Shown here: piece after piece, positions 8,187-21,129 of the stretch
Numbering within the stretch: position 1 is the stretch's first letter
Layout: each line of letters begins with the position of its first letter
Assembly: GCA_017412625.1 (NCBI GenBank)
Contig: JAFPWZ010000061.1
Location: forward strand, 1 to 35,756
DNA: 35,756 nt
Direction of reading: 5' to 3'
Source of the DNA: Methanomicrobium sp.
GTDB taxonomy: Archaea; Halobacteriota; Methanomicrobia; Methanomicrobiales; Methanomicrobiaceae
The notes under the pieces: model-generated
What the model saw: the letters and a program-made list of their open reading frames with translations, nothing else
What the model was told of the DNA's origin: nothing
The model's database searches: none
Program-made: the position numbers and the translations under genes

Positions 8187-9329
8187 ATGCAGAAATACAT
8201 ACCGTTATCCGTCCCCAACCTCAAAGGGAACGAGAAAAAATATGTCGATGATGCCATAACTCAGGAATGGGTATCAACCGGCGGCGCCTACATCACACAG
8301 ATGGAAAAGGCGGTTGCGGAGTACGTTCATACGCCGGATGCTGTGGCCTGCCAGTCGGGAACCGCGGCGCTTCACCTCTCATTAATCTGCTGCGGAATAA
8401 ACGCGGGCGACGAAGTAATCGTCCCCACCCTTACCTTTGTTGCGGCAGTCAACCCCGTCAAATACGTGAATGCCGAGCCCGTCTTCATGGACTGCGACGA
8501 TACGCTCTGCATGGACATGGATAAACTCGAGCGTTTCTGCCTCGAAGAATGCGAGATGCGAAACGGCAGACTGACTGACAAGTCCAACGGAAAGCACGTC
8601 TCCGCAGTCATTGTCGTCCACGTCTTCGGCAATATCGCGAACATGGAAAAACTCATGGATCTGAAGAAGCGCTTCGGATTCAAGGTCATAGAGGATGCAA
8701 CGGAAGCGTTCGGAAGTTACTTCAAGAACGGCGTCTTTGCAGGGAAGTTTGCGGGAACAATCGGCGATATCGGCGCGCTGTCGTTTAACGGCAACAAGAT
8801 TGTGACCACCGGCGGCGGCGGTATGCTGATATCTCAGGACACAAAAATTCTCGATAAAGCACGTTACCTCTCGACACAGGCAAAAGACGATGCCGTATAC
8901 TTCCTGCACAACGAAATCGGATACAACTACCGCATGACAAATATTCAGGCGGCGGTGGGGGTTGCCCAGATCGAACGCATTGAGGAGTTTGTCGCAATCA
9001 AGAACACGAATTATGATAATTACGTCAAAAACGGAGTTAAACTGTATCCGTTCCGCGAGGATATACGATCAAATCGCTGGTTCTACAGTTATCTGACGGA
9101 CAGGCGCGACGATCTGATAAAGTATCTGGGAGAGAACAATATCCAGTCCAGACCTATCTGGCATCTGATTCACGATCTTCCGCCTTACAAAAATTCGCGG
9201 GCATATCATATAGAGAAAGCGCAGTACTTCCACGACCGCGTTGTCAACATTCCGTGCAGCACGAATCTTACGGCGGATGACGTGAACACGGTCTCGGAAA
9301 CAATCATTAGATTCAATAAAGAGGTCTGA
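8187..9329 (+). CDS. legC: DegT/DnrJ/EryC1-type PLP aminotransferase (LegC-like)
   Basis: 380 residues, normal for sugar aminotransferases. The opening IPLSVPNLKGNEKKYV...EWVSTGG is characteristic of the LegC group. PLP-binding Lys204 sits in SFNGNKIVTTGGGGM, with QSGTAALH (56-63), VIED (167-170) and the tail pattern RPIWHLIHDLPPY. It should aminate the 4-keto sugar made by LegB using glutamate. AGAGAGG before ATG 8187 is a good ribosome site. Only one base separates its stop from the start of the split ptmE, implying translational coupling. Confidence 0.9.
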   Translation: MQKYIPLSVPNLKGNEKKYVDDAITQEWVSTGGAYITQMEKAVAEYVHTPDAVACQSGTAALHLSLICCGINAGDEVIVPTLTFVAAVNPVKYVNAEPVFMDCDDTLCMDMDKLERFCLEECEMRNGRLTDKSNGKHVSAVIVVHVFGNIANMEKLMDLKKRFGFKVIEDATEAFGSYFKNGVFAGKFAGTIGDIGALSFNGNKIVTTGGGGMLISQDTKILDKARYLSTQAKDDAVYFLHNEIGYNYRMTNIQAAVGVAQIERIEEFVAIKNTNYDNYVKNGVKLYPFREDIRSNRWFYSYLTDRRDDLIKYLGENNIQSRPIWHLIHDLPPYKNSRAYHIEKAQYFHDRVVNIPCSTNLTADDVNTVSETIIRFNKEV

Positions 9330-9507: not shown

Positions 9508-9513
9508 AATGTG

Positions 9514-10392
9514 ATGGATATAGCAAATCGGGATTTCAAGTCCTTGAAAGAAACTGACAGTATAGACTCCGATCTGCTTGCCGATATTAAACTGAATTAT
9601 AAAGCATTGCCCGTTCTGGATGCAGACGGCAAAATCCTTTCAATTGTCTTTGATGACGAAACCGCATCACTGCCGCATAAGAAACTGAATCTGCCCGTTG
9701 TCATAATGGCGGGGGGTAAAGGAACCCGCCTGTATCCGTATACGAAAGTCCTTCCTAAACCTTTGATTCCGATAGGGGATGTGCCGATTACCATGCACAT
9801 AATGCAGCATTTCGAGAGATTCGGGTGCACGCATTTTACTCTTGTTGTCAATCACCAAAAGGAACTGATAAAGGCATATTTCTCGGATCCCGAGATCCCG
9901 TATGTCGTTGACTTTGCGGAAGAAGTCAGACCTCTCGGAACCGCAGGGGGTCTGAAACTCCTCGAAGGCAGGATTAACGGGACTTTCTTCATGACCAATT
10001 GTGATATTCTGGTTGATGCGGATTATGACAAGATATATGAATATCACAAGAAATCCGGCAACCTGATAACCATGGTCTGCGCTGTCAAGAAGATAACCAT
10101 ACCCTACGGAACCGTATGCATGAATGAGTCGGGTCATATAGAAAGTATGGTCGAGAAACCCGAGATCTCGTATCTGGTGAATACTGGATATTATGTGTTG
10201 GAATCCGAGGTATTATCTGAGATTCCCGAAAACACGTTTATTCACATGACCGATGTCGTGCAAAAGTGCATTGATGAAGGAAAGCCCGTCGGGGTCTTCC
10301 CGATAAGCGAGAATCAGTGGTCTGATATGGGACAGATTGATGAGATGGAGAAGATGAAGGATAAAATGGTCGGCGGCAATGACGGACATTGA
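9514..10392 (+). CDS. ptmE: sugar-1-phosphate nucleotidyltransferase (PtmE-like) after the in-frame stop
   Basis: About 292 residues: the rest of a CBS domain (to about residue 45), then a NTP_transferase domain starting VVIMAGGKGTRLYPYTKVLPKPLIPIG, the nucleotide-binding G-G-x-G-T-R-L signature, with later NCDIL and VEKP motifs. In Campylobacter PtmE makes GDP-glucosamine from GlcN-1-P to feed legionaminate synthesis. The upstream TGA lies seven bases before ATG 9514 (TGAAATGTGATG), so terminating ribosomes could restart here at ATG or GTG 9511 and still make the intact catalytic domain. Its last 14 bases overlap the acetyltransferase gene. Confidence 0.85.
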   Translation: MDIANRDFKSLKETDSIDSDLLADIKLNYKALPVLDADGKILSIVFDDETASLPHKKLNLPVVIMAGGKGTRLYPYTKVLPKPLIPIGDVPITMHIMQHFERFGCTHFTLVVNHQKELIKAYFSDPEIPYVVDFAEEVRPLGTAGGLKLLEGRINGTFFMTNCDILVDADYDKIYEYHKKSGNLITMVCAVKKITIPYGTVCMNESGHIESMVEKPEISYLVNTGYYVLESEVLSEIPENTFIHMTDVVQKCIDEGKPVGVFPISENQWSDMGQIDEMEKMKDKMVGGNDGH

Positions 10393-11047
10393 ACGTAATG
10401 AACGGAAGTATCCCAAACTTGTTCTTGTCGGCGGCGGGGGACACTGCAGATCGGTATTATCATCGATTGACCGCAGTAAATACGCCGATATTGTTATTGT
10501 CGATTCCAAAGAGAATTTAGGGAAGGATGTAGACGGCGTCCCAATCGCCGGAACCGACGATGATCTTGCAAAACTGCATGATGAAGGCTATTGTGAGGCA
10601 TTCATAACCGTGGGATCCGTATCGAGCAATCCGAAGAGGCGCAGGATATATGAATCACTGGAAAAAATCGGATTTTCTTTTCCGTCTTTCATAGATCCGT
10701 CAGCAGCAGTCGCGGATTCCGCCGTAATCGAAGAAGGTGTTTTCGTCGGAAAGAATGCGGTAATCAATGCGGGGTCGCGAATCGGCAAGTTTTCCATAAT
10801 TAATACGGGTGCGATAGCGGATCATGACTGCAATATAGGATCATTTGTCCATCTCTCACCCGGCGTTGTCCTGTCAGGGACCGTGACAGTTGGTGATAAC
10901 ACTCATGTGGGAACGGGCACATGCGTTAAACAATGCGCTAAAATCGGTGAGAATACTACTGTCGGAATGGGAAGCGTTGTCATAACCGATATTCCGTCAA
11001 ACTGCGTTGCATACGGCGTTCCGTGCAAAGTGAGGGATACGTTATGA
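10379..11047 (+). CDS. legH: NeuD/PglD-type sugar O/N-acetyltransferase (LegH-like)
   Basis: 222 residues. A Rossmann-like N-terminus (LVLVGGGGHCRSVLSSI) binds the sugar nucleotide, and a left-handed beta helix of hexapeptide repeats follows from about residue 95 (VIEEGVFVGKNAVINAGSRIGKFSIINTGAIADHDCNIG). Catalytic His is expected in ADHDCNIG. This is the PglD/NeuD layout; in the legionaminate route it acetylates the 4-amino sugar. Start overlaps the preceding gene by 14 bp and its stop overlaps the next ATG (ATGA), so it is fully coupled in the operon. Confidence 0.88.
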   Translation: MTDIERNERKYPKLVLVGGGGHCRSVLSSIDRSKYADIVIVDSKENLGKDVDGVPIAGTDDDLAKLHDEGYCEAFITVGSVSSNPKRRRIYESLEKIGFSFPSFIDPSAAVADSAVIEEGVFVGKNAVINAGSRIGKFSIINTGAIADHDCNIGSFVHLSPGVVLSGTVTVGDNTHVGTGTCVKQCAKIGENTTVGMGSVVITDIPSNCVAYGVPCKVRDTL

Positions 11048-12051
11048 GCAAAGGGAATCATACTTTCATAATCGCCGAGATTGGTGTCAACCATAACGGC
11101 TCGGCCGATATCGCAAAGAAAATGATCGATACGGCAAAAGCCTGCGGTGTTGACGCCGTTAAATTCCAGACTTTCGTTTCCGAAAATTTGGTCTCGCGAT
11201 TTGCAGAGAAAGCCGAATATCAGAAAGAAACGACTGGAAAGGACGAGAGTCAGCTTGCCATGATCAAAAAGTTGGAGTTATCTTACGATGATTTCAGAGA
11301 GCTGAAGAGATATGCGGAATCGATGAATCTGACGTTCATGTCCACACCTTTTGATCATGACAGCATTGACTTTCTTGCCGAACTCGGCGTTGATATCTTT
11401 AAGATACCTTCGGGAGAGATAACTAACCTGCCGTATCTGATGAGGATCGGTAAATTAAAGCGAAAAGTAATCCTTTCCACCGGCATGAGCACTTTGCCCG
11501 AGATAAAGGATGCTATCGCGATTCTTAAAAAATACGGGACTGCCGATATAACACTGCTTCACTGTAATACGGCATACCCGACACCATACAGGGATGTCAA
11601 TCTCAACGCCATGAAAACGCTCCGCAATTCTTTCGGGTTGCCAGTGGGTTACTCCGATCACACAAAAGGTATCGAGGTGCCTATAGCGGCGGCAGCGCTG
11701 GGTGCGGTTGTAATCGAGAAGCATTTCACTCTCGACCGAAACATGGAAGGTCCCGATCACAAGGCAAGCCTCGAACCCGATGAACTGAAAGCGATGGTGA
11801 CTTCGATAAGAAACATAGAGGATGCGCTCGGAAGTTCCGAGAAGAGGCTTACGGAATCGGAAGCGGTCAACCGCGACATCGCCAGAAAAAGTATAGTCGC
11901 GAAGTGCGATATCAAAGCGGGCACGGTCTTCTCGGAAGATAACATTACTGTAAAAAGACCCGGAAACGGAATCTCGCCGATGAAATGGTTTGAGGTTCTC
12001 GGGAAGAAGGCACCCCGCGATTTCGAATACGATGAGTTGATTGAATTATGA
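11044..12051 (+). CDS. legI: NeuB-family nonulosonate synthase (LegI-like)
   Basis: Condenses PEP with a six-carbon sugar (here probably 2,4-diacetamido-2,4,6-trideoxymannose) to give the nine-carbon acid. The TIM-barrel domain starts FIIAEIGVNHNGS, followed by VDAVKFQTF, STPFD, FKIPSGE, LSTGMS, LHCNTAYP, GYSDHT and EKHFTLDR. A C-terminal SAF (antifreeze-like) domain begins near residue 280 (ARKSIVAKCDIKAGTVFSED). I chose ATG 11044 over the upstream GTG 11023 because it overlaps the legH stop as ATGA and begins right before the conserved strand. Sialate and legionaminate synthases cannot be separated with certainty by eye. Confidence 0.93.
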   Translation: MSKGNHTFIIAEIGVNHNGSADIAKKMIDTAKACGVDAVKFQTFVSENLVSRFAEKAEYQKETTGKDESQLAMIKKLELSYDDFRELKRYAESMNLTFMSTPFDHDSIDFLAELGVDIFKIPSGEITNLPYLMRIGKLKRKVILSTGMSTLPEIKDAIAILKKYGTADITLLHCNTAYPTPYRDVNLNAMKTLRNSFGLPVGYSDHTKGIEVPIAAAALGAVVIEKHFTLDRNMEGPDHKASLEPDELKAMVTSIRNIEDALGSSEKRLTESEAVNRDIARKSIVAKCDIKAGTVFSEDNITVKRPGNGISPMKWFEVLGKKAPRDFEYDELIEL

Positions 12052-13211
12052 CAAAGACAATCGGAATCGTAACGGCAACAAGGGCGGAATGGGGTCTGCT
12101 CAGACCGCTCGCTAAGCTGATCCAGGACGATCCCAAATTTAATCTGTTTCTTGCGGCAACGGGCACGCATTATCTCGAGGATTTCGGCGAAACATACAAA
12201 GAGATCGTTGCCGACGGATTCACGATAGACGCACGTGTTGACATTATTCGTTCGGAGATAAAAAATCCCGCAGATGTCAGTAATACAATGGCTAACGCCG
12301 TATCCGGTTTTGCGGATCTGTTCTCGAAGCATCGGATAGATCTGTTGATTCTTCTGGGAGACAGATATGAAACTCTTGCCGTCGCTATTGCGGCAATGAA
12401 CGCCAAAATACCGATTGCCCACCTTCACGGCGGCGAACTTACCGAAGGGGCGATTGATGATTCGATAAGACATACCATCACAAAACTCTCCTATCTTCAT
12501 TTCACGAGCTGCGAGGCATACCGCCGGCGCGTTATACAACTCGGCGAGCAACCAGACCGCGTATATAATGTCGGAGCCATCGGAATCGACAATATCAGAC
12601 AGATGAAACTGTTATCAAGAGAAGATCTCTCGTCCGCGATAGATTTCGATATTTCCGATTCAAAGTATGCGGTGGTGACATATCATCCCGAGACTCTCAA
12701 CGGCAATGTGAAATATCAATGCGAGCAACTTCTGGAGGCATTATCCGCATTTCCGGCGATGAAATTCATAATCACCAAATCCAATGCTGACGAGGGAGGT
12801 CTTATCATCAATGAGATGGTTGACGAGTATGCAAAAAATCATGCAAACGTTCTTGCCGTATCATCTCTCGGAAATCTGAAGTATCTTAGCGCACTTAAGC
12901 ATGCATCCGCGGTTATCGGGAATTCGTCAAGCGGCATCGCGGAAGCGCCGTATTTTAAGATACCGACCGTGAACATCGGCGTTCGTCAGAGGGGCAGGAT
13001 ACAGGCGGAGTCGATTATTAATTGCAATGCGGTTGCATCCGAGATTGCCGGTGCTATTAAGAAAGCTATGTCGGATGAATTTGCGAGGATTGCTGCGAAG
13101 TCGGTGTATCCTTACGGGGACGGTCATGCATCGGAAAAGATTGTTGCGGCGTTGCATGATTGGCTGGATGATGAGAAGATTGATTTGAAGAAAGTGTTTT
13201 ATGATCTGTGA
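12048..13211 (+). CDS. legG: hydrolysing sugar-nucleotide 2-epimerase (LegG/NeuC-like)
   Basis: 387 residues in the WecB/NeuC fold. It removes the nucleotide while inverting C2, supplying the mannose-configured sugar for LegI. Motifs: IGIVTATRAEWGLLRPL at the start, LGDRYETL, AHLHGGELTEGAIDDSIRHTITKLSYLHF in the middle, VTYHPET, and GNSSSGIAEAPYFKIPTVNIG(V)RQRGR near the end. EGAIDDSIRH is typical of the hydrolysing NeuC/LegG type rather than WecB. ATGA overlap with legI. The last 11 bases overlap an upstream in-frame ATG of legF. Confidence 0.92.
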   Translation: MTKTIGIVTATRAEWGLLRPLAKLIQDDPKFNLFLAATGTHYLEDFGETYKEIVADGFTIDARVDIIRSEIKNPADVSNTMANAVSGFADLFSKHRIDLLILLGDRYETLAVAIAAMNAKIPIAHLHGGELTEGAIDDSIRHTITKLSYLHFTSCEAYRRRVIQLGEQPDRVYNVGAIGIDNIRQMKLLSREDLSSAIDFDISDSKYAVVTYHPETLNGNVKYQCEQLLEALSAFPAMKFIITKSNADEGGLIINEMVDEYAKNHANVLAVSSLGNLKYLSALKHASAVIGNSSSGIAEAPYFKIPTVNIGVRQRGRIQAESIINCNAVASEIAGAIKKAMSDEFARIAAKSVYPYGDGHASEKIVAALHDWLDDEKIDLKKVFYDL

Positions 13212-13215
13212 TATT

Positions 13216-13923
13216 ATGAAAAACATTGCGATAATTCCTGCAAGAAGCGGTTCAAAAGGTCTTAAGGACAAGAACATCAAGTTGTTGAACGGCAAACCGT
13301 TACTGGCTTATTCCGTTGAAGCGGCACTCGAGTCCAAGATGTTTGATGAGGTTATGGTCTCAACGGATTCCGAGAAGTATGCCGCCATTGCAAGAGAATA
13401 CGGTGCGAATGTTCCTTTCCTTAGATCCGCAGAATTGTCATCGGATACGGCAACATCAAAAGACGTTATTCTGGATGTTTTAAGTCGATATGAAGCATCC
13501 GGAAAGATCTTTGACACCTTTTGTCTGCTTCAACCTACATCGCCTTTGAGAACGGCATCGGATATAATCAAAGCCTATGAATTTTTTGCCGAAAAAAATG
13601 CTTTGGCTGTTGTAGGTGTGACCGAAGCGGATCATTCGCCGCTGCTTTACGGAACGCTTCCGGAAGATCGTTCCATGGTTGGGTTCATCAAAGATAAAGT
13701 GAAGGATAAACCAAGGCAGGCATTGGAGACATATTACAGAATAAACGGAGCGATGTATATAGCAGATGTCGGGTATTATCGGGAATTTGGTGATTTCTAC
13801 AAATATCGCTGTTATGCTTATGTAATGGGGAGAGAGGTATCTGTGGATATTGACTCGGAGATGGATTTTAGGCTGGCTGAGTTGTTATTTCAAAATATCT
13901 TAGATGCAAAAAAGAAAAAGTAG
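13216..13923 (+). CDS. legF: CMP-nonulosonate cytidylyltransferase (LegF/NeuA-like)
   Basis: Activates the nonulosonic acid with CTP to form the CMP-sugar donor. The nucleotide-binding motif IPARSGSKGLKDKNIKLLNGKPLL opens the protein; SDTATSKDVI, LLQPTSPLRTASDI and the Asp pair in VSVDIDSEMDF follow as in NeuA. I prefer ATG 13216 (MKNIAIIPARSGSKG) because family members start just before this strand; ATG 13201 would add five residues. Length 235 is normal. It is the last gene of the operon. An AT-rich 370-bp gap separates it from the glycosyltransferase. Confidence 0.93.
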   Translation: MKNIAIIPARSGSKGLKDKNIKLLNGKPLLAYSVEAALESKMFDEVMVSTDSEKYAAIAREYGANVPFLRSAELSSDTATSKDVILDVLSRYEASGKIFDTFCLLQPTSPLRTASDIIKAYEFFAEKNALAVVGVTEADHSPLLYGTLPEDRSMVGFIKDKVKDKPRQALETYYRINGAMYIADVGYYREFGDFYKYRCYAYVMGREVSVDIDSEMDFRLAELLFQNILDAKKKK

Positions 13924-14295: not shown

Positions 14296-15543
14296 ATGAT
14301 GAGTCAATTTCATAATGTGACAAAGAAACAAAAAAAAATATCAACAATAATAATAATCACAGTGCATCCTTTCTCTGAAAGAGATTATGTTAGATTTGGG
14401 ATAGATACGTTCCTAGAAAATGGGTATGCTATAAAAGTATTTGTGATCTTCCCGATGTTTACACAAAATTATGCTGATAATGTCATCCCAGAAATAAAAA
14501 ATGGTATTGAATCTAAAATTATTTCGAGTGCAAATAAGATACGTTCGGAATTGCGCCAATACTCTCCAGAGAATTGTATGATTATTATGAATTGTCATAT
14601 CGTGTACAATAGTTTAAAATTATACAGAGTACTTAAAGAGTACTCCATAGACTATTCAATAGTCAATTTAGGATCAATTCCAGCCATCAAAAATGATGGA
14701 TCATTGAAAAGTGCATTTATTGCTGCCAAGATTAAGCGTTACATTCAATTATTCTCTTTAAGAGCAGTCTGCGACAAATTCCTTACAATTTTACCAAAAA
14801 AATACTATTGGCTACTGGGAGTTACCCCTGCAAAATACTATCTTGTTGGCGGAGCGATTGCTTTGGAAGCACCTTTTGGAATATATTTCTCCGATAAAAC
14901 AACGATAATTAATGCACATTCTATGGATTATGACCGGTATTTAGAGATGGATGCATATACATTTTCCGTTAATGACATTAATTCAAAGTATTGTGTATTC
15001 ATTGATCAATATCTGCCGCATCATCCCGATAATGCTGTTAGCTATGGGAAATCTCCATGTTCTGAAGAGAAATACTACTCTGCGCTCAACATATTCTTTG
15101 AATATATTGAAAAAAAGTTTGACATAAAAGTAATTATTGCAGCTCATCCGAGAGCAGACTATAGTTTGCATCCTAATGCATATCCTAATCGAACAATTAT
15201 TTTGGGTAAAACTAACTACTTGGTGCGTGATGCCGATTTTGTTATAATGCATAACTCAACCGCAATAAGTTATGCAGTACTGTTCAAAAAACCAATTCTG
15301 TTTCTCACCACGAATGAACTGATAGAAAATTATGGCGGTATGTACAATGATTCTATCTCCACATTTGCTCAATATTTTGGACAAGCACCAATTAACATAG
15401 ATACTGATTATTCACAACTAAGTGAAATTCCAAAAATTAATGAAAAATTGTATGATAAATACATTAATGACTACATAAAAATCAAAGGATCCCCAGACAA
15501 AAAGATATGGGAGATATTCATTGACGAAATCGAAAAGTGTTGA
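14296..15543 (+). CDS. putative nonulosonate (sialic-acid-like) glycosyltransferase
   Basis: 415 residues; I do not recognise a named family. Two features recall bacterial sialyltransferases: an HP motif, AAHPR at 282-286, and a later S/T motif, HNSTAISYA at 319-327, spaced by about 35 residues, followed by LFKKPILFLTT. The layout suggests a GT-B fold with CMP-sugar bound in the C-terminal half (VFIDQYLPHHPD at 234-245 opens it). The N-terminus IIIITVHPFSERDYVRFGIDTFLENGY would be the acceptor domain. Codons are very AT-rich, unlike neighbours, so horizontal transfer is likely. Position after the leg operon supports a legionaminyl or pseudaminyl transferase. ATG 14299 is an alternative start. 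Confidence 0.6.
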   Translation: MMSQFHNVTKKQKKISTIIIITVHPFSERDYVRFGIDTFLENGYAIKVFVIFPMFTQNYADNVIPEIKNGIESKIISSANKIRSELRQYSPENCMIIMNCHIVYNSLKLYRVLKEYSIDYSIVNLGSIPAIKNDGSLKSAFIAAKIKRYIQLFSLRAVCDKFLTILPKKYYWLLGVTPAKYYLVGGAIALEAPFGIYFSDKTTIINAHSMDYDRYLEMDAYTFSVNDINSKYCVFIDQYLPHHPDNAVSYGKSPCSEEKYYSALNIFFEYIEKKFDIKVIIAAHPRADYSLHPNAYPNRTIILGKTNYLVRDADFVIMHNSTAISYAVLFKKPILFLTTNELIENYGGMYNDSISTFAQYFGQAPINIDTDYSQLSEIPKINEKLYDKYINDYIKIKGSPDKKIWEIFIDEIEKC

Positions 15544-15624
15544 ATACTTTACAAATATTTGAAAGAATTTGCAATCAATCAAAACCAATAGATACCTCCA
15601 TCAACATAAATAAATATACCAACC

Positions 15625-15832
15625 ATGTTCAATAACTAATCAATACTCATTACCAGAGGCACGGGTTCTTTCGGTAATCACTTCATGGAAATACATCCTG
15701 AAACATTATGATCCAAAGAGGATCGTCATCTATTCCCATGACGAATACAAGCAATTCATAATGAACAATATATTCAAGGAATACGACAACAAACTCCGCA
15801 TTTCAGAAAGAATGTGTAGAAGATTCTCATAA
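15625..15832 (+). pseudogene. pseB: 5' remnant of pseB (UDP-GlcNAc 4,6-dehydratase/5-epimerase)
   Basis: Reads MFNN-stop-SILITRGTGSFGNHFMEI in one frame, then after a one-base shift LKHYDPKRIVIYSHDEYKQF and MNNIFKEYDNKLR. Together these match the first 60 or so residues of PseB: the G-x-T-G-S-F-G Rossmann loop and the P-K-x-I-x-I-Y-S-R-D-E-x-K-Q motif. It has a TAA at codon 5, one frameshift, G-to-R in the glycine loop, and then stops. The rest of the roughly 330-residue enzyme is missing. Confidence 0.8.
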
Positions 15833-16138
15833 CTGCCGGCGGTTTGTGAACTGTGTGCCTGCGGTGTGCCTTCAGTATGCTTTTCATGGGCGGACAATCA
15901 GATAGACTCTGTGTCGGTGTTTACGAAGAAGAGGTTGATGTTCGGAGCCGGCGATATCCGCTCCGATCCTAAGTAGTGTGTGACGGATATTGTTGAAGGG
16001 TTGCGAGCCTATTGTTCGGATTATGAGATGAGGGTAAAATGTGTGGGGAGGTTAATGGGTGTTGTTGATGGTGGGGGTGTGAGTAGGATTTGTGAAGTGT
16101 TATCTACCATTTCAGATACCCACAATAATATAAAATAA
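15833..16138 (+). pseudogene. pseG: 3' remnant of pseG (pseudaminate-pathway UDP-sugar hydrolase)
   Basis: Directly after the pseB piece, and in the same frame, lies LPAVCELCACGVPSVCFSWA, then DNQIDSVSVFTKKRLMFGAG, DIRSDPK-stop(TAG 15974-15976)-CVTDIVEGLRAYCSDYEMRV, then GRLMGVVDGGGVSRICEVL. This matches the C-terminal third of PseG: the E-L-C-A-C-G-x-P nucleotide-binding turn, A-D-N-Q, a G-D-x-R segment and the final L-V-D-G-x-G-x-x-R-I. A deletion evidently joined the start of pseB to the end of pseG and removed everything between. The TAG shows further decay. Confidence 0.65.
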
Positions 16139-16191
16139 AATATATCATATTTCACTCCGATACTCAATATAATAATCTAAATACGATAAAC

Positions 16192-17157
16192 ATGGCAAAA
16201 GTAACAATCATCGGCGCTTCCGGAAAAGTGGGTCAGTTCGCCGCATACTCGGTATCGGCAATACCGTACGTAAAAAAACTGCTTCTTTTCGGAAGAAAAG
16301 GTAACGAAGACGTGCTGGAAGGCACAAAATGGGATTTCATCGACAACTTCGCCGCACTCGGACGCGACGTAATGCTCCAATGGAGCTGCGACCCGAAAGA
16401 CCTCGAAGGCTCAGACATCGTCATAATAACGGCGGGAATCCCGCGTCGCGCCGGTCAGGACAGACTCGACCTGGCTAAGCAGAACGCCGTCATAATCGCC
16501 AAATACTCAAAGATGATAGCGGAAAACGCGCCGGACTCAATAATCTTCGTAGTCTCCAACCCCGTCGACGTCATGACCTCGGTTGCGCTGAAATACTCCG
16601 GTTTCCCGCAGAACCGCGTATTCGGTCTGGGAACACACCTTGACTCCATGCGCCTGAAATCCTTCGTCGCGCACCACTTCAAGGTCCATGTCTCGGAGGT
16701 GCACACCCGTATCATCGGAGAACACGGCGCTAGCATGGTGCCGCTGTGGTCCGCGACAACAATCGGCGGTATCCAGATAAGCAATCTGCCGAAATTCGAC
16801 AGCCTGCCGAAAGAAGAGATGGTCCACTGGGTACTTAATGCGGGGTCGCACATCATCGAGAAGAGCGGCGCCACCGTCTACGGACCCGGCGCCGCAATAG
16901 CCACGCTCGTAAAGACCGTGCTCGGCGACGAGAACAGGATTCTCTCGGTCTCGGCATACGTAAAGAGCGAGGTTCACGGCATCGGAAACGTAAGCATCGG
17001 AGTGCCCGCCCGCATCAACAGAAAAGGAGTATTCCCCGTCTCTATTATGATAAGCGAGGACGAGGTCAACCAGTTCAAGATCTCGGTCGAGAAGATTAAA
17101 GCCGCCACCGCCGATGTCATGAACGGTCTTGACGAGAGACTTGCCGCCGAAGAATAA
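16192..17157 (+). CDS. mdh: malate dehydrogenase (MJ0490-like, probably NADP-preferring)
   Basis: 321 residues of the LDH/MDH family. GASGKVG (8-14) binds the dinucleotide. Substrate residues are Arg85 and Arg91 in AGIPRRAGQDR, Asp151 and Arg154 in GLGTHLDSMRLK, and His178 in GEHGASMVPLWS. Arg at the position of Gln in lactate dehydrogenase marks malate/oxaloacetate specificity. Where NAD enzymes have Asp at the end of beta2, this one has Gly34-Arg35 (LFGRKGN), as in the NADP-using Methanocaldococcus enzyme. It likely makes malate for the reductive partial TCA route. An AT-rich promoter region (TAAAATATATCATA near 16136-16149) precedes it; a T6 run at 17182-17187 may end it. Confidence 0.92.
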   Translation: MAKVTIIGASGKVGQFAAYSVSAIPYVKKLLLFGRKGNEDVLEGTKWDFIDNFAALGRDVMLQWSCDPKDLEGSDIVIITAGIPRRAGQDRLDLAKQNAVIIAKYSKMIAENAPDSIIFVVSNPVDVMTSVALKYSGFPQNRVFGLGTHLDSMRLKSFVAHHFKVHVSEVHTRIIGEHGASMVPLWSATTIGGIQISNLPKFDSLPKEEMVHWVLNAGSHIIEKSGATVYGPGAAIATLVKTVLGDENRILSVSAYVKSEVHGIGNVSIGVPARINRKGVFPVSIMISEDEVNQFKISVEKIKAATADVMNGLDERLAAEE

Positions 17158-17238
17158 TTGAAAACAATAAATCATTTGATACTTTTTTGAAAATCCGTGA
17201 AAGATAAAGCACAACGATAAAACACGGAAACTTTAAAG

Positions 17239-17471
17239 AAACTGATACTTTTAAAATGAGAAATTCTTTTCCCGCAACAGAAGAAGGTTTAAACAATTTT
17301 CAGAATCACATTTGGTCGTGATTCTTCAGGTTTGGACAAGCAATTTTTTCTTTTTTTATCTGACCGCCTCCCTCAGTGGTCGTCTGATTAGAAAGTTCTC
17401 ACGAGAGTATATAAATGGACCAAATTCACCCGGGCGTATTGTATAACCGAAAGGTTAGACTGATGCACAAA
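17239..17471 (+). repeat. direct repeat copy 1: promoter plus hairpin unit
   Basis: Unit of about 233 bp repeated 316 bp downstream with high identity (by eye roughly 85-90%). In order: CCCGCAACAGAAGAAGG; stem AGAATCAC-ATTTGGTC-GTGATTCT (17302-17325); stem GACCGC/GTGGTC around CTCCCTCA (17362-17381); GTCTGATTAG; TATA box GAGTATATAAATGG (17405-17418); and about 25 bp later the hairpin TAACC-GAAA-GGTTA (17443-17456). The order upstream box, TATA, hairpin suggests a small RNA gene starting near 17435. Confidence 0.8.
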
Positions 17472-17550
17472 GAGCATGAATGCGAAGCTGAAAGTGAATG
17501 ACTGAATGTGAAGCCGAATGTGAACAGCCGGATGAGAACGGAATTCCAAG

Positions 17551-17787
17551 AAACTTTTAACTTTTTTAAAATGAGAAAAATCTTTTCCCGCAACAGAAGA
17601 AGGTTTAAACAATTTTCAGAATCACATTTGGTCATGATTCTTCAGGTTTGGACAAGCAACTTTATCTTTTCTTATCTGACCGCCTCCCTTAGTGGTCGTC
17701 TGATTAGAAAGTCATCCCGAGAGTATATATATGGACCAAATTCCCCAGGGCGTATTGTATAACCGCGAGGTTAGACTTATGCACAAA
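17551..17787 (+). repeat. direct repeat copy 2: promoter plus hairpin unit
   Basis: Second copy with the same order of parts: stem AGAATCA/TGATTCT (17618-17641), GACCGCCTCCCTTAGTGGTC (17678-17697), TATA GAGTATATATATGG (17721-17734) and hairpin TAACC-GCGA-GGTTA (17759-17772). The tetraloop changes from GAAA to GCGA, both GNRA, while the stem is unchanged. That pattern is expected of a functional RNA hairpin. Confidence 0.8.
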
Positions 17788-18460
17788 ACGTATTGACCCG
17801 GGTATGATGGCGGTATAACAATAAGTGGTCTGAAAATACTGAAAAAATACTTGAAAAGATAACTAAAAAATGCCTAAAAAATACCGGATAAATATCTGAA
17901 AAAAATACCTGAAAAACGGACATAATGTCCGGAATTTTTGTTAAATGATGACTTTTTGGTTTAAATGAAGATTAATACACATCACGTAAAATGAAACGGT
18001 TGGTTTTGGTTTTGGTTTACTTATTTTGTTTCACTTATTTTGATGCTTATTTTCCGGTTTTGTAGGTTGATTTTCCGGTCTTTCAGGATTGGAATTATCG
18101 GTTCTCTGTTTCGGTTATAACGGATATATCATCCGATCGGTTTTTCGGTTTTGGTCATGATAATCGTCTTTTCCGATTATGAGGTTTTTCGGATACTTTA
18201 TCCGATATCAAGGCTTTTAGTTAAATGACTACCAATTTTTCGTTCGTTTTCGTTCGTTTCTGTTTTGTTTCGTTTATTTCGTTCTTTTTCATAATGTCAC
18301 GCTTTGTGTCGTTCCCAACGGACATTAATGATATCAATATGGATGGATGAGACCTTTTCTCGCATAAAAAGGTGATTCAAATGATGTTTGCTGAAGATAA
18401 CCAAAACCTGCCGTCATGTTTTTCTGCACATTATTTTCAGTACAATAACAGTACATGCTT

Positions 18461-18570
18461 TTTCAGACCACCTCCCACTGAACAGTCTATGATAGTCAAT
18501 AGGCCTTTGTACTATATATATTTAATTTGTGGTCGAAATCCTGTCTATGAGCCGACCGCGGAACGAAAAA
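18461..18570 (+). repeat. diverged third unit of the same family
   Basis: CAGACCACCTCCCACTGAAC followed by AGTCTATGATAG and a TATA box CTATATATATTTAA (18512-18525) matches the upstream box, GTCTGAT element and TATA spacing of copies 1 and 2 (47 versus 45 bp from GACC to TATA). Downstream, GTGGTCG pairs with CGACCGC across a 17-base loop (one G-T wobble). Sequence beyond this differs from copies 1 and 2. Confidence 0.5.
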
Positions 18571-18781
18571 AATGGCATACTAAATGACCGAAAAAGTTGA
18601 CAACTATATATTGTTTCGCATGACCCCCGTAAAATGCATCTCTGAAAATATGACGATAATCTCAAAACAAAGGATAAATAAGGCTTTCATTAACAAAACG
18701 AAATTGCCGCACAAAACGTAAAGGGATTAGTGGATTGACAGATATTATGCATCCGTCAATCGTACGGGGGTATTTGCGGCA

Positions 18782-19672
18782 CTATTGTGATGTCTGCTCT
18801 TTTGATATGCAATTACGCTTAACAAATTCAAGAATAACCAGCAGGGCAACTCCCGCAAGGGCACAGACGATAACGGCGGGCGTAAAACCTCCGCTCAGCT
18901 CCACTTTGCCGATTAAAAGGCGGGATGTGCCGATCATAAGACCCGTAAGCATGGCAAGCATCGCGGCATGATAGCGGCTGAGCAGAAATTTGAGCAACTT
19001 CGTGAAACCCAGAATACCCAGAATACCTCCCGCGCTGAATACAATCAGCGGCACTATCTCCATCGTGTGAATACAATTCAGAAGATACTCATACTGATTG
19101 AAGATTAACGTGATGTATGCTCCCGAAATTCCGGGGAGGATCATCGCGCAGAACGCCACCATTCCCGTGATGAAAAGCACGAGGGGAGAGTGGCCGAGCA
19201 TCGCCGGCTCAAGCCCGCCCACAAGATAACCGATTACGAGACCGACCAGTGCCGAGCCGACGACCGCGATTTTATTGCCGCGGGACTCAACGGACCCGAT
19301 CTCCAGAAGAATCAGGACGGCGGAGGCGAGGATGAGCCCGAAGAAGAAGCTGTAGGTAAACGCGGTATAACTCTCAAGGAGCATGGAGATTATCTTCGAT
19401 ACCGTAACCGCGGCAATAACGATACCCGAGACCAGAATGACAAGGAAGAAGAAATCCATGTATTTCAGCTCGGCGACGAACGCTTTTCTGTCCGTAAAAA
19501 ATGTCTTCAGAAGGACGTCGGGACGTATGTTTCCGATTGCCGTCACAAGCCGCTCGTAAATTCCCGTCAGAAGCGCAATCGTGCCCCCCGAAACTCCCGG
19601 GATAATGTCGCAGGCACCCATCAGAAAGCCGCGTACAAGAATTAAAAGATATTCGCTTACGGTTTTATCCAT
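18782..19672 (-). CDS. DUF368 polytopic membrane protein (polyprenyl-phosphate carrier family)
   Basis: 296 residues with eight to ten hydrophobic segments and the DUF368 hallmarks RGFLMGACDIIPGVSGGTIALLTGIYERL near the N-terminus and MVAFCAMILPGISGAYITLI in the middle, two related P-G-x-S-G loops from an inverted repeat fold. Bacterial DUF368 proteins have been identified as recyclers of undecaprenyl phosphate across the membrane. In an archaeon the likely cargo is dolichyl or other polyprenyl phosphate used in glycosylation, which is inference. The start ATG is followed by KTVSEYLLILVRG. A near-palindrome CACGACATATATATGTTCGTG at 19692-19712 covers its promoter. Confidence 0.9.
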   Translation of the reverse strand: MDKTVSEYLLILVRGFLMGACDIIPGVSGGTIALLTGIYERLVTAIGNIRPDVLLKTFFTDRKAFVAELKYMDFFFLVILVSGIVIAAVTVSKIISMLLESYTAFTYSFFFGLILASAVLILLEIGSVESRGNKIAVVGSALVGLVIGYLVGGLEPAMLGHSPLVLFITGMVAFCAMILPGISGAYITLIFNQYEYLLNCIHTMEIVPLIVFSAGGILGILGFTKLLKFLLSRYHAAMLAMLTGLMIGTSRLLIGKVELSGGFTPAVIVCALAGVALLVILEFVKRNCISKEQTSQ

Positions 19673-19691
19673 TCTCTAAGAGATTTACGGT

Positions 19692-19712
19692 CACGACATA
19701 TATATGTTCGTG
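19692..19712. promoter_or_regulatory. TATA-containing near-palindrome before the DUF368 gene
   Basis: CACGA and TCGTG arms flank the symmetric core CATATATATG, with one unpaired base. It lies 20-40 bp before the DUF368 start on the minus strand, so it probably contains the TATA box and may be an operator overlapping it. Confidence 0.45.
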
Positions 19713-19898
19713 AAAAATATCTTCGCGAAAACAGGACAAAGGACAATAATCAGGCATCAATAAAATGGGCATCAAAAGTTAACGGGCATCAATAATAATC
19801 GGGCATCAGTACCCTGCTTCATCAGCAAAACACCTCATAAGAAGTGCCTTTCAGTGGGGGTAACTTTCATCATCTGCCCGAAAACTTACTTTCGCTTA

Positions 19899-19951
19899 GT
19901 TATTTGAGAATTCTACATGATATATATGACTCAGATTGCGACTCAAATAAC
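19899..19951. promoter_or_regulatory. 10-bp inverted repeat flanking the cdc6 TATA box
   Basis: GTTATTTGAG (19899-19908) and CTCAAATAAC (19942-19951) are perfect reverse complements, centred on GATATATATGA (19919-19929). The arrangement suggests a regulator or Cdc6 itself binding either side of the TATA box. The ATG follows 53 bp later. Confidence 0.5.
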
Positions 19952-20004
19952 AGATCCTTAATAAAAACAGATCCTTAATTACAGTATAACTCATAAAATT
20001 CTTC

Positions 20005-21129
20005 ATGAAAAAAGACCTGCTTATGTGGGATGAGACTCTCTTTCGCGACATTGAGGTATTCGAGATAGACTACATGCCCGAGCAGTTCGATTTTCGCGAC
20101 AATCAGATACGGGAACTCGCAATAAACGTCAAACCCGGACTTGCGGGGGCAAGACCGCTCAACACAATCTGCAAGGGACTTCCGGGCACAGGAAAGACCA
20201 CAACGGTAAAGATGCTCTTCGCCGACATCGAAGAGAAGACAAAGAAGATAATCCCTGTCTACATAAACTGTCAGATAGACAATACAAAGTTCGCAATTTT
20301 TTCGCAGATCTACAAAAAACTCACGAAACGACCCCCGCCGGCATCGGGAACGTCCTTCAAGAATCTCTTCGATCAGGTCTGCAAGATTCTCTCCGACAAA
20401 GATGCCGTGCTGCTCGTCTGCCTCGACGATGCCAACTACCTCCTCTACGAAAAGGAGATAAGCAATGTCCTTTACACGCTTCTGCGGTCGCATGAGGCAA
20501 ACGAAGGTGTCAGAATCGGCGTCATCACAATCATCTCGGACATGACCGTCGATCTCATGCAGGAAGTCGACAACCGCGTCGCCTCGGTATTCAGACCCTC
20601 CGAGATCTACTTCGCGCCCTACAGCGAGAGCGAGATAAGCGAGATCTTAAACCAGCGCGTCATGCAGGGGCTCTATCCGGGAGTTCTCTCATCCGATATC
20701 TTCGAGCTCATCGTGGAGCAGACCATGAAGAGCGGCGACCTCCGCGTCGGAATCGATCTGCTCAAGCGCTCGGCTCTGAATGCGGAGAAGGACGCCAGAA
20801 AGGAGATTGTAAAGGACGACGTCTGCCGCGCATATCTCATCTCGAAATATCTGCACCTCTCAAGCAGTGTAAAGACCCTCTCGGATGAGGAGAAAGGGCT
20901 TTTGAAAGCAATTGCCCTGATGTCTCAGAAGGAGAAGGAGATGAATGCGGGGGCGGTCTTTGACGAACTCAAAGATTCTCTCAAGATAGGATATACAAGG
21001 TATTCCGAGATACTCAAGAAATTCGACTCGATGCGTCTCATAAATCTCAACTACAAGGAAGGCAAGGGACGAACGCGGCTGATTACACTGCGCTACGACC
21101 CCTCCCGCATCATCGAGATTCTCGGCTGA
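20005..21129 (+). CDS. cdc6: Orc1/Cdc6 replication initiator ATPase
   Basis: 374 residues, normal for archaeal Orc1/Cdc6. AAA+ domain: Walker A GLPGTGKT (58-65), Walker B LLVCLDDA (136-143), sensor-1 region VITIISD, and GDLRVGIDLLKRSA as sensor 2 with its arginine. The C-terminal winged helix starts about residue 290 (LSDEEKGLLKAIALMSQKE). It recognises origin boxes and loads MCM. The N-terminus (MWDETLFRDIEVFEIDYMPE) is typical. No origin box is obvious in its own upstream spacer, although one like it lies at 32.5 kb. Start is supported by family N-termini and the preceding TATA/IR element. Confidence 0.93.
   Translation: MKKDLLMWDETLFRDIEVFEIDYMPEQFDFRDNQIRELAINVKPGLAGARPLNTICKGLPGTGKTTTVKMLFADIEEKTKKIIPVYINCQIDNTKFAIFSQIYKKLTKRPPPASGTSFKNLFDQVCKILSDKDAVLLVCLDDANYLLYEKEISNVLYTLLRSHEANEGVRIGVITIISDMTVDLMQEVDNRVASVFRPSEIYFAPYSESEISEILNQRVMQGLYPGVLSSDIFELIVEQTMKSGDLRVGIDLLKRSALNAEKDARKEIVKDDVCRAYLISKYLHLSSSVKTLSDEEKGLLKAIALMSQKEKEMNAGAVFDELKDSLKIGYTRYSEILKKFDSMRLINLNYKEGKGRTRLITLRYDPSRIIEILG

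Follow-up and report, generated by a model that had tools for sequence, protein, structure and literature searches.

A 1.6-kb region of the Methanomicrobium genome, flanked by malate dehydrogenase (16192-17157, plus strand) and a DUF368/VCA0040-like gene (18782-19672, minus strand), carries a repeated unit, which raises the question of what is transcribed there, from which strand and under what control. The window that we analysed is a stretch of 35,756 nucleotides, and its host is a rumen methane-producing archaeon.

The repeat units and their promoter

Two direct repeats, 17261-17471 and 17577-17787, are 211 nt each, share 93% identity and are spaced by 316; a diverged third unit follows them, as the initial annotation had described. 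The order of elements that it had reported (GACC-N-CCTCCC, GTCTGAT, TATA) was found in both units and in the third, which has GACCACCTCCC at 18466 with GTCTATGAT, and all the inverted repeats that it had named are in the sequence. A whole-genome pattern search returned the combined pattern three times, each time at this locus; GACCNCCTCCC alone occurs five times, three of them at the locus, and its copy on contig C90 apparently lies inside a coding sequence. We rejected the idea that the box pattern is more widespread: matches beyond this genome and that of M. mobile look unrelated, and three in other genomes encode, as read by eye, the same peptide, QTLFYPEGGG. All three units occupy the same position in M. 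mobile BP, and the locus is therefore not an assembly artefact. Genomes G003 and G005, of the same genus, have one unit each, on the same side of the DUF368 gene.

Several other features of the window were noted. Degenerate 14-15 bp tandem repeats (CCGAATGTGAATAG) lie between units 1 and 2 (17480-17560), and also at 8560-8640 of locus L009; they are longer in M. mobile. The palindrome CGGACATAATGTCCG at 17917-17931, kept in M. mobile, is terminator-like on both strands and may end transcripts from both sides. Between DUF368 and cdc6, a possible C/D sRNA lies at positions 19798-19882 (minus strand), where several C/D-box RNA families matched below threshold (best E 0.045, for sR1). Genes for a nucleotidyltransferase, NeuB, UDP-GlcNAc 2-epimerase and a cytidylyltransferase form a sialic-acid-like sugar cluster at 9511-13923.

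A covariance model built from the six units (R1) was used to search related genomes, a search that had been proposed with the original description, and it found related elements in Methanomicrobiaceae, frequently as tandem pairs or triples. A promoter model of 38 sequences (R2), trained on the R1 matches, recovers both units on the minus strand (unit 1, 17375-17464, E=2.1e-18; unit 2, 17691-17780, E=1.9e-16). The minus-strand consensus reads (R)TNTAACC-N4-GGTTANAY, 15-16 bp, ATTTT-NNN-CATTTATAT, about 24 nt and TNATCAGAG. Its operator-like palindrome, which can also be given as GTTTAACC-N4-GGTTAAAC some 15 bp before the promoter core, is common to the 38 aligned promoters, and palindrome, TATA box and start region keep nearly fixed spacing in them, with the start region, ATCAGAG, about 24 nt beyond the TATA box on the minus strand. 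In unit 2 the palindrome is GTATAACC-GCGA-GGTTAGAC (17757-17776, minus), upstream of the minus-strand TATA box CATATATATA (17724-17733), which the alignments place at near-constant spacing from palindrome and start region. In unit 1, the R2 match identifies GTATAACC-GAAA-GGTTAGAC (17441-17460, minus), and the alignments the TATA box ATTTATATAC (17408-17417, minus). The outer pairs of the palindrome covary (34 double-changed cells vs 17.6 in shuffles). No tRNA promoters with the same architecture were seen.

The initial annotation had read the units on the plus strand, with the TAACC/GGTTA hairpin at the start of the transcript. Many of the elements, however, directly precede genes on the minus-strand reading. 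Taking an ATG preceded by a Shine-Dalgarno (SD) sequence 45-105 nt after the TATA box and an ORF of at least 80 aa as the mark of a promoter that drives an ORF, we found 23 such promoters among 83 classified on the minus-strand reading, 22 of them with a hydrophobic N-terminus in the product, and 1 of 83 on the opposite reading, against a background of 3.5% at random places. The palindrome is thus an upstream promoter element, found before protein genes too, rather than a transcript hairpin, and it is probably an operator. The stems that had been placed upstream are, on the minus-strand reading, the real hairpins of the RNA. The loop is GNRA only in this species pair, being AAAA, CTCG, GGAC, TTCC or another sequence in relatives, and this variability rules it out as a feature. 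A short plus-strand ORF (ATG CAC AAA, with SD-like GAGGT) was likewise set aside, being present in the species pair and lost in G003 and G005.

Predicted small RNAs on the minus strand

Read from this promoter, unit 2 would yield an RNA of about 130 nt (17576-17706, minus), predicted from the conserved ATCAGA start region, a T5 run and the M. mobile orthologue, with its start near 17700-17706 and its end at a U-run near 17576. The corresponding RNA of unit 1, also about 130 nt (17260-17390, minus), has a terminal U-run weakened by a deletion. No protein gene lies downstream of either unit's promoter, and the copies share no ORF of 40 or more codons; the non-coding calls here and in relatives denote the absence of a convincing ORF. 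The predicted RNA has a 5' hairpin, GACCAC...GCGGUC, which an unpaired A-rich stretch separates from a second hairpin. Between the latter and the U-run lie 37 nt, GAAAATTGTTTAAACCTTCTTCTGTTGCGGGAAAAGA, with almost no variation, or none, among the four copies of the two species. The 5' hairpin (17678-17697 in unit 2; 17362-17381 in unit 1; both minus) occurs in each of the four copies from the two species, and relatives have 5' hairpins of different sequence. The second hairpin (17618-17641 in unit 2; 17302-17325 in unit 1; both minus) is a compensated stem: AGAATCA/TGATTCT becomes GGGATTA/TAATCCC in M. mobile, so that three of eight pairs carry a double compensatory change and pairing stays at 100%, an outcome that random placement of an equal number of changes gave in 0.35% of trials (0.0035), although all the changes come from comparing a single pair of species, in which both copies changed together.

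The unit boundaries at 17261 and 17577 coincide with the terminator, a plain T5 run in unit 2 and a weakened one in unit 1. In relatives, the matching end carries an intrinsic terminator: GGCAGAAAACUGCC with CCAUUCUUUUUU in G003, GGCUUUUAAGCC with CCUUUUUUU in G005 and GGCAGACCCG...UGCCCCUUUU in genus g7. Tandem copies in relatives are alike over the span between terminator and operator, about -215 to between +60 and +97 around the TATA box when read on the plus strand. The counterparts in genus g7 measure about 180-235 nt and combine a 5' helix (GUGUU../..ACAC) and the terminator GGCAGACC..GGU..UGCC(CC)UUUU with C/A-rich linkers that stay unpaired; RNAalifold recovered both the 5' and the 3' helices, with only one pair doubly changed.

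The third unit (18334-18524, minus) has a TATA-like sequence (18512-18524), its box at 18466-18476 and a hairpin, ACCTTTT/AAAAGGT (18352-18373), and its identity with M. mobile over 18318-18497 is about 95%. Lacking the operator palindrome and not matching R2, it counts as no more than a partial relative of the other two. Its open frame of 40 codons (18456-18334, minus) has the same length in M. mobile.

Three other explanations of the units were weighed. That they are plus-strand genes, in which the TATA box is followed by a short transcript opening with the TAACC/GGTTA hairpin, would fit the near symmetry of the TATA box and a palindrome with covarying outer pairs at a fixed 31 nt from it. 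Yet similarity breaks off immediately beyond the hairpin, both between close species such as G119 and G120 and between tandem copies, the element precedes protein genes that are read from the other strand (23 vs 1) and the terminators are on the minus strand, which together make this reading very improbable. Somewhat less so, and still improbable, is that the minus-strand transcripts encode short peptides. A strong SD-like GGGAGG/GGAGGUG does lie within the 5' hairpin, and the 40-codon frame of the third unit is kept in two species; in the units of G000, G002, G003 and G005, however, no suitably spaced start codon follows the SD-like stretch, the frames differ among copies, and the differences in the third-unit frame, read by eye, are all amino-acid changing and none synonymous. 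Finally, repeats and inverted repeats close to a cdc6/orc1 gene (20005-21129) might mark a replication origin, the Cdc6 paralogue being 1.4-2.8 kb away and the region AT-rich. The 472-kb M. mobile contig shows no inflection of cumulative GC skew at the locus and other genomes have the same units at loci without cdc6, so that we give an origin hardly any weight.

We thus favour, with a probability of roughly 0.7, the reading that the two units are small-RNA genes, arranged in tandem on the minus strand under a shared operator. The idea of a multicopy regulatory RNA is supported, since genomes across Methanomicrobiaceae contain several homologous units, often arranged in tandem, in which a promoter and a terminator enclose a structured body; the strand assigned to it was wrong. 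A mobile promoter cassette, the other suggestion made for the units, is unsupported, since the copies are syntenic between species and no mobile-element ends are visible. Relatives retain the stems and lose the protein frames, the reverse of what had been named as evidence against an RNA; the plus-strand frame, confirmed here as broken in copy 1, is not kept in them.

Distribution and a candidate regulator

Matches to R2 were found in 23 of 28 Methanomicrobiaceae genomes (1-15 promoters each; G107 only at E=0.28), and few lie beyond this family. The size of the promoter family is partly circular, because R2 was trained on R1 matches; the link to a regulator is independent of that training. Genomes G005 and G108 have multiple further non-coding family promoters elsewhere (loci L203, L206, L151 and L200), some of them in tandem.

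Many of the sites adjoin a cassette encoding a PP2C phosphatase, a fusion of an ArsR-type HTH to an FHA domain (HTH_5+FHA) and a membrane Ser/Thr kinase that includes a NosD/beta-helix part (Pkinase+NosD). The same set of PP2C, HTH-FHA and beta-helix transmembrane Ser/Thr kinase genes is conserved across Methanomicrobiales (for example, L138 8963-9739, minus, and its neighbours). Within the family, 21 of 28 genomes have both operator and regulator, one has the operator only, none the regulator only and six neither (Fisher test, 1.9e-5); in the genome with the operator only, G122, the operator cluster is close to a contig end. Across the order the operator occurs in 45 of 153 regulator-positive and 3 of 79 regulator-negative genomes (7e-7), related genomes being counted as independent in both tests. 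Outside the family, 8 of 29 operator matches lie 130-151 bp upstream of the start of the HTH-FHA gene. In 228 kb of sequence around regulator genes we counted 19 occurrences of AACC-N4-GGTT, compared with 0-3 for three control patterns.

On balance, these associations suggest that the HTH-FHA protein binds the operator. It could instead be that the promoter family and its RNAs are real and obey another protein, the HTH-FHA gene being a mere neighbour or a fellow target. Binding by HTH-FHA is a prediction from sequence, and most regulator-positive genomes outside the family have no detectable operator (108 of the 153 in the order), so that the binding site may differ there; both points suit another regulator. 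The co-occurrence, and the position 130-151 bp before the HTH-FHA gene in distant genera, speak against it, and we regard it as unlikely.

A possible circuit and its counterparts

Our best reading of the sequences as a whole is a kinase/FHA-controlled regulon that comprises envelope proteins and a multicopy small-RNA family. An envelope or surface signal would be sensed by the transmembrane Ser/Thr kinase, whose extracellular part is a beta-helix, and would change the phosphorylation of the cassette, which the phosphothreonine-binding FHA domain would read. The HTH domain of this fusion, the most likely binder of the operator, would then act at the palindrome, whose place ahead of the TATA box would suit an activator and would also allow repression. 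Secreted proteins, lipoproteins and small RNAs would in this way come under the joint control of the regulator. The mRNAs of this programme would be the pairing targets of the small RNAs, which in several relatives would use CCUCC motifs opposite the ribosome-binding sites.

The motif itself is enriched in the non-coding RNAs that other promoters of the family are predicted to drive: over 33 such transcripts the anti-Shine-Dalgarno sequence ACCUCC was counted 21 times, where base shuffling predicts 1.5, and it exceeds the dinucleotide-shuffle mean in all four genera examined. The window's own two copies lack it, and the mechanism is therefore drawn from relatives; the M. mobile copies have CUCCU in a hairpin loop only. 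We accordingly propose pairing to SD sequences as the mode of action of these small RNAs only tentatively. More tentative still is the full scheme, in which kinase, PP2C and HTH-FHA protein would switch on multicopy small RNAs that reset the translation of surface proteins by pairing with ribosome-binding sites.

The closest counterpart in design is LhrC1-5 of Listeria, a set of near-identical multicopy small RNAs controlled by the sensor-kinase regulator LisRK at upstream promoter elements, which face SD sequences with CU-rich motifs in loops and linkers and are linked to envelope proteins (PMC4132741). Several near-identical copies, upstream promoter elements with a putative shared kinase-linked regulator and a proposed link to envelope proteins recur here. 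The units are archaeal, however, and would depend on a Ser/Thr kinase with FHA-HTH, whereas LhrC is bacterial and answers to a two-component system. They are predicted from sequence and match no Rfam family (cmscan of 15500-20000 returned none for the units at E values up to 5), and the CU motif is found in relatives and is absent from the window's copies. They may work like the LhrC system, and no test made places them among its members. Nearer in phylogeny is sRNA162 of Methanosarcina mazei, a structured methanogen small RNA whose unpaired linker masks a ribosome-binding site (PMC3510493). It resembles the units, as predicted, in joining structured parts to an unpaired linker, and differs in coming from another order; nor is it known to form a multicopy family governed by one operator. 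Control of archaeal transcription by an FHA protein through phosphorylation is established for ArnA, with ArnB, in Sulfolobales (PMC6509490, PMC10470591); ArnA works with a vWA partner, whereas the FHA domain of the present candidate forms a fusion with an ArsR-type HTH, and RNAs belong to its putative regulon. A literature search of incomplete coverage found no small-RNA family for Methanomicrobiales and nothing on this promoter or RNA family.

Few archaeal small RNAs have a known regulator or target. Here an operator, a candidate regulator, co-regulated genes and an RNA family are named together, and the whole circuit is therefore open to experiment in species that are in culture, including the rumen methanogen M. 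mobile. If the proposal is right, it would tie Hanks-type kinase/FHA signalling to RNA regulation, an unusual link in archaea, and a eukaryote-like kinase circuit in an archaeon would be doing the job of the envelope-stress small-RNA regulons of bacteria.
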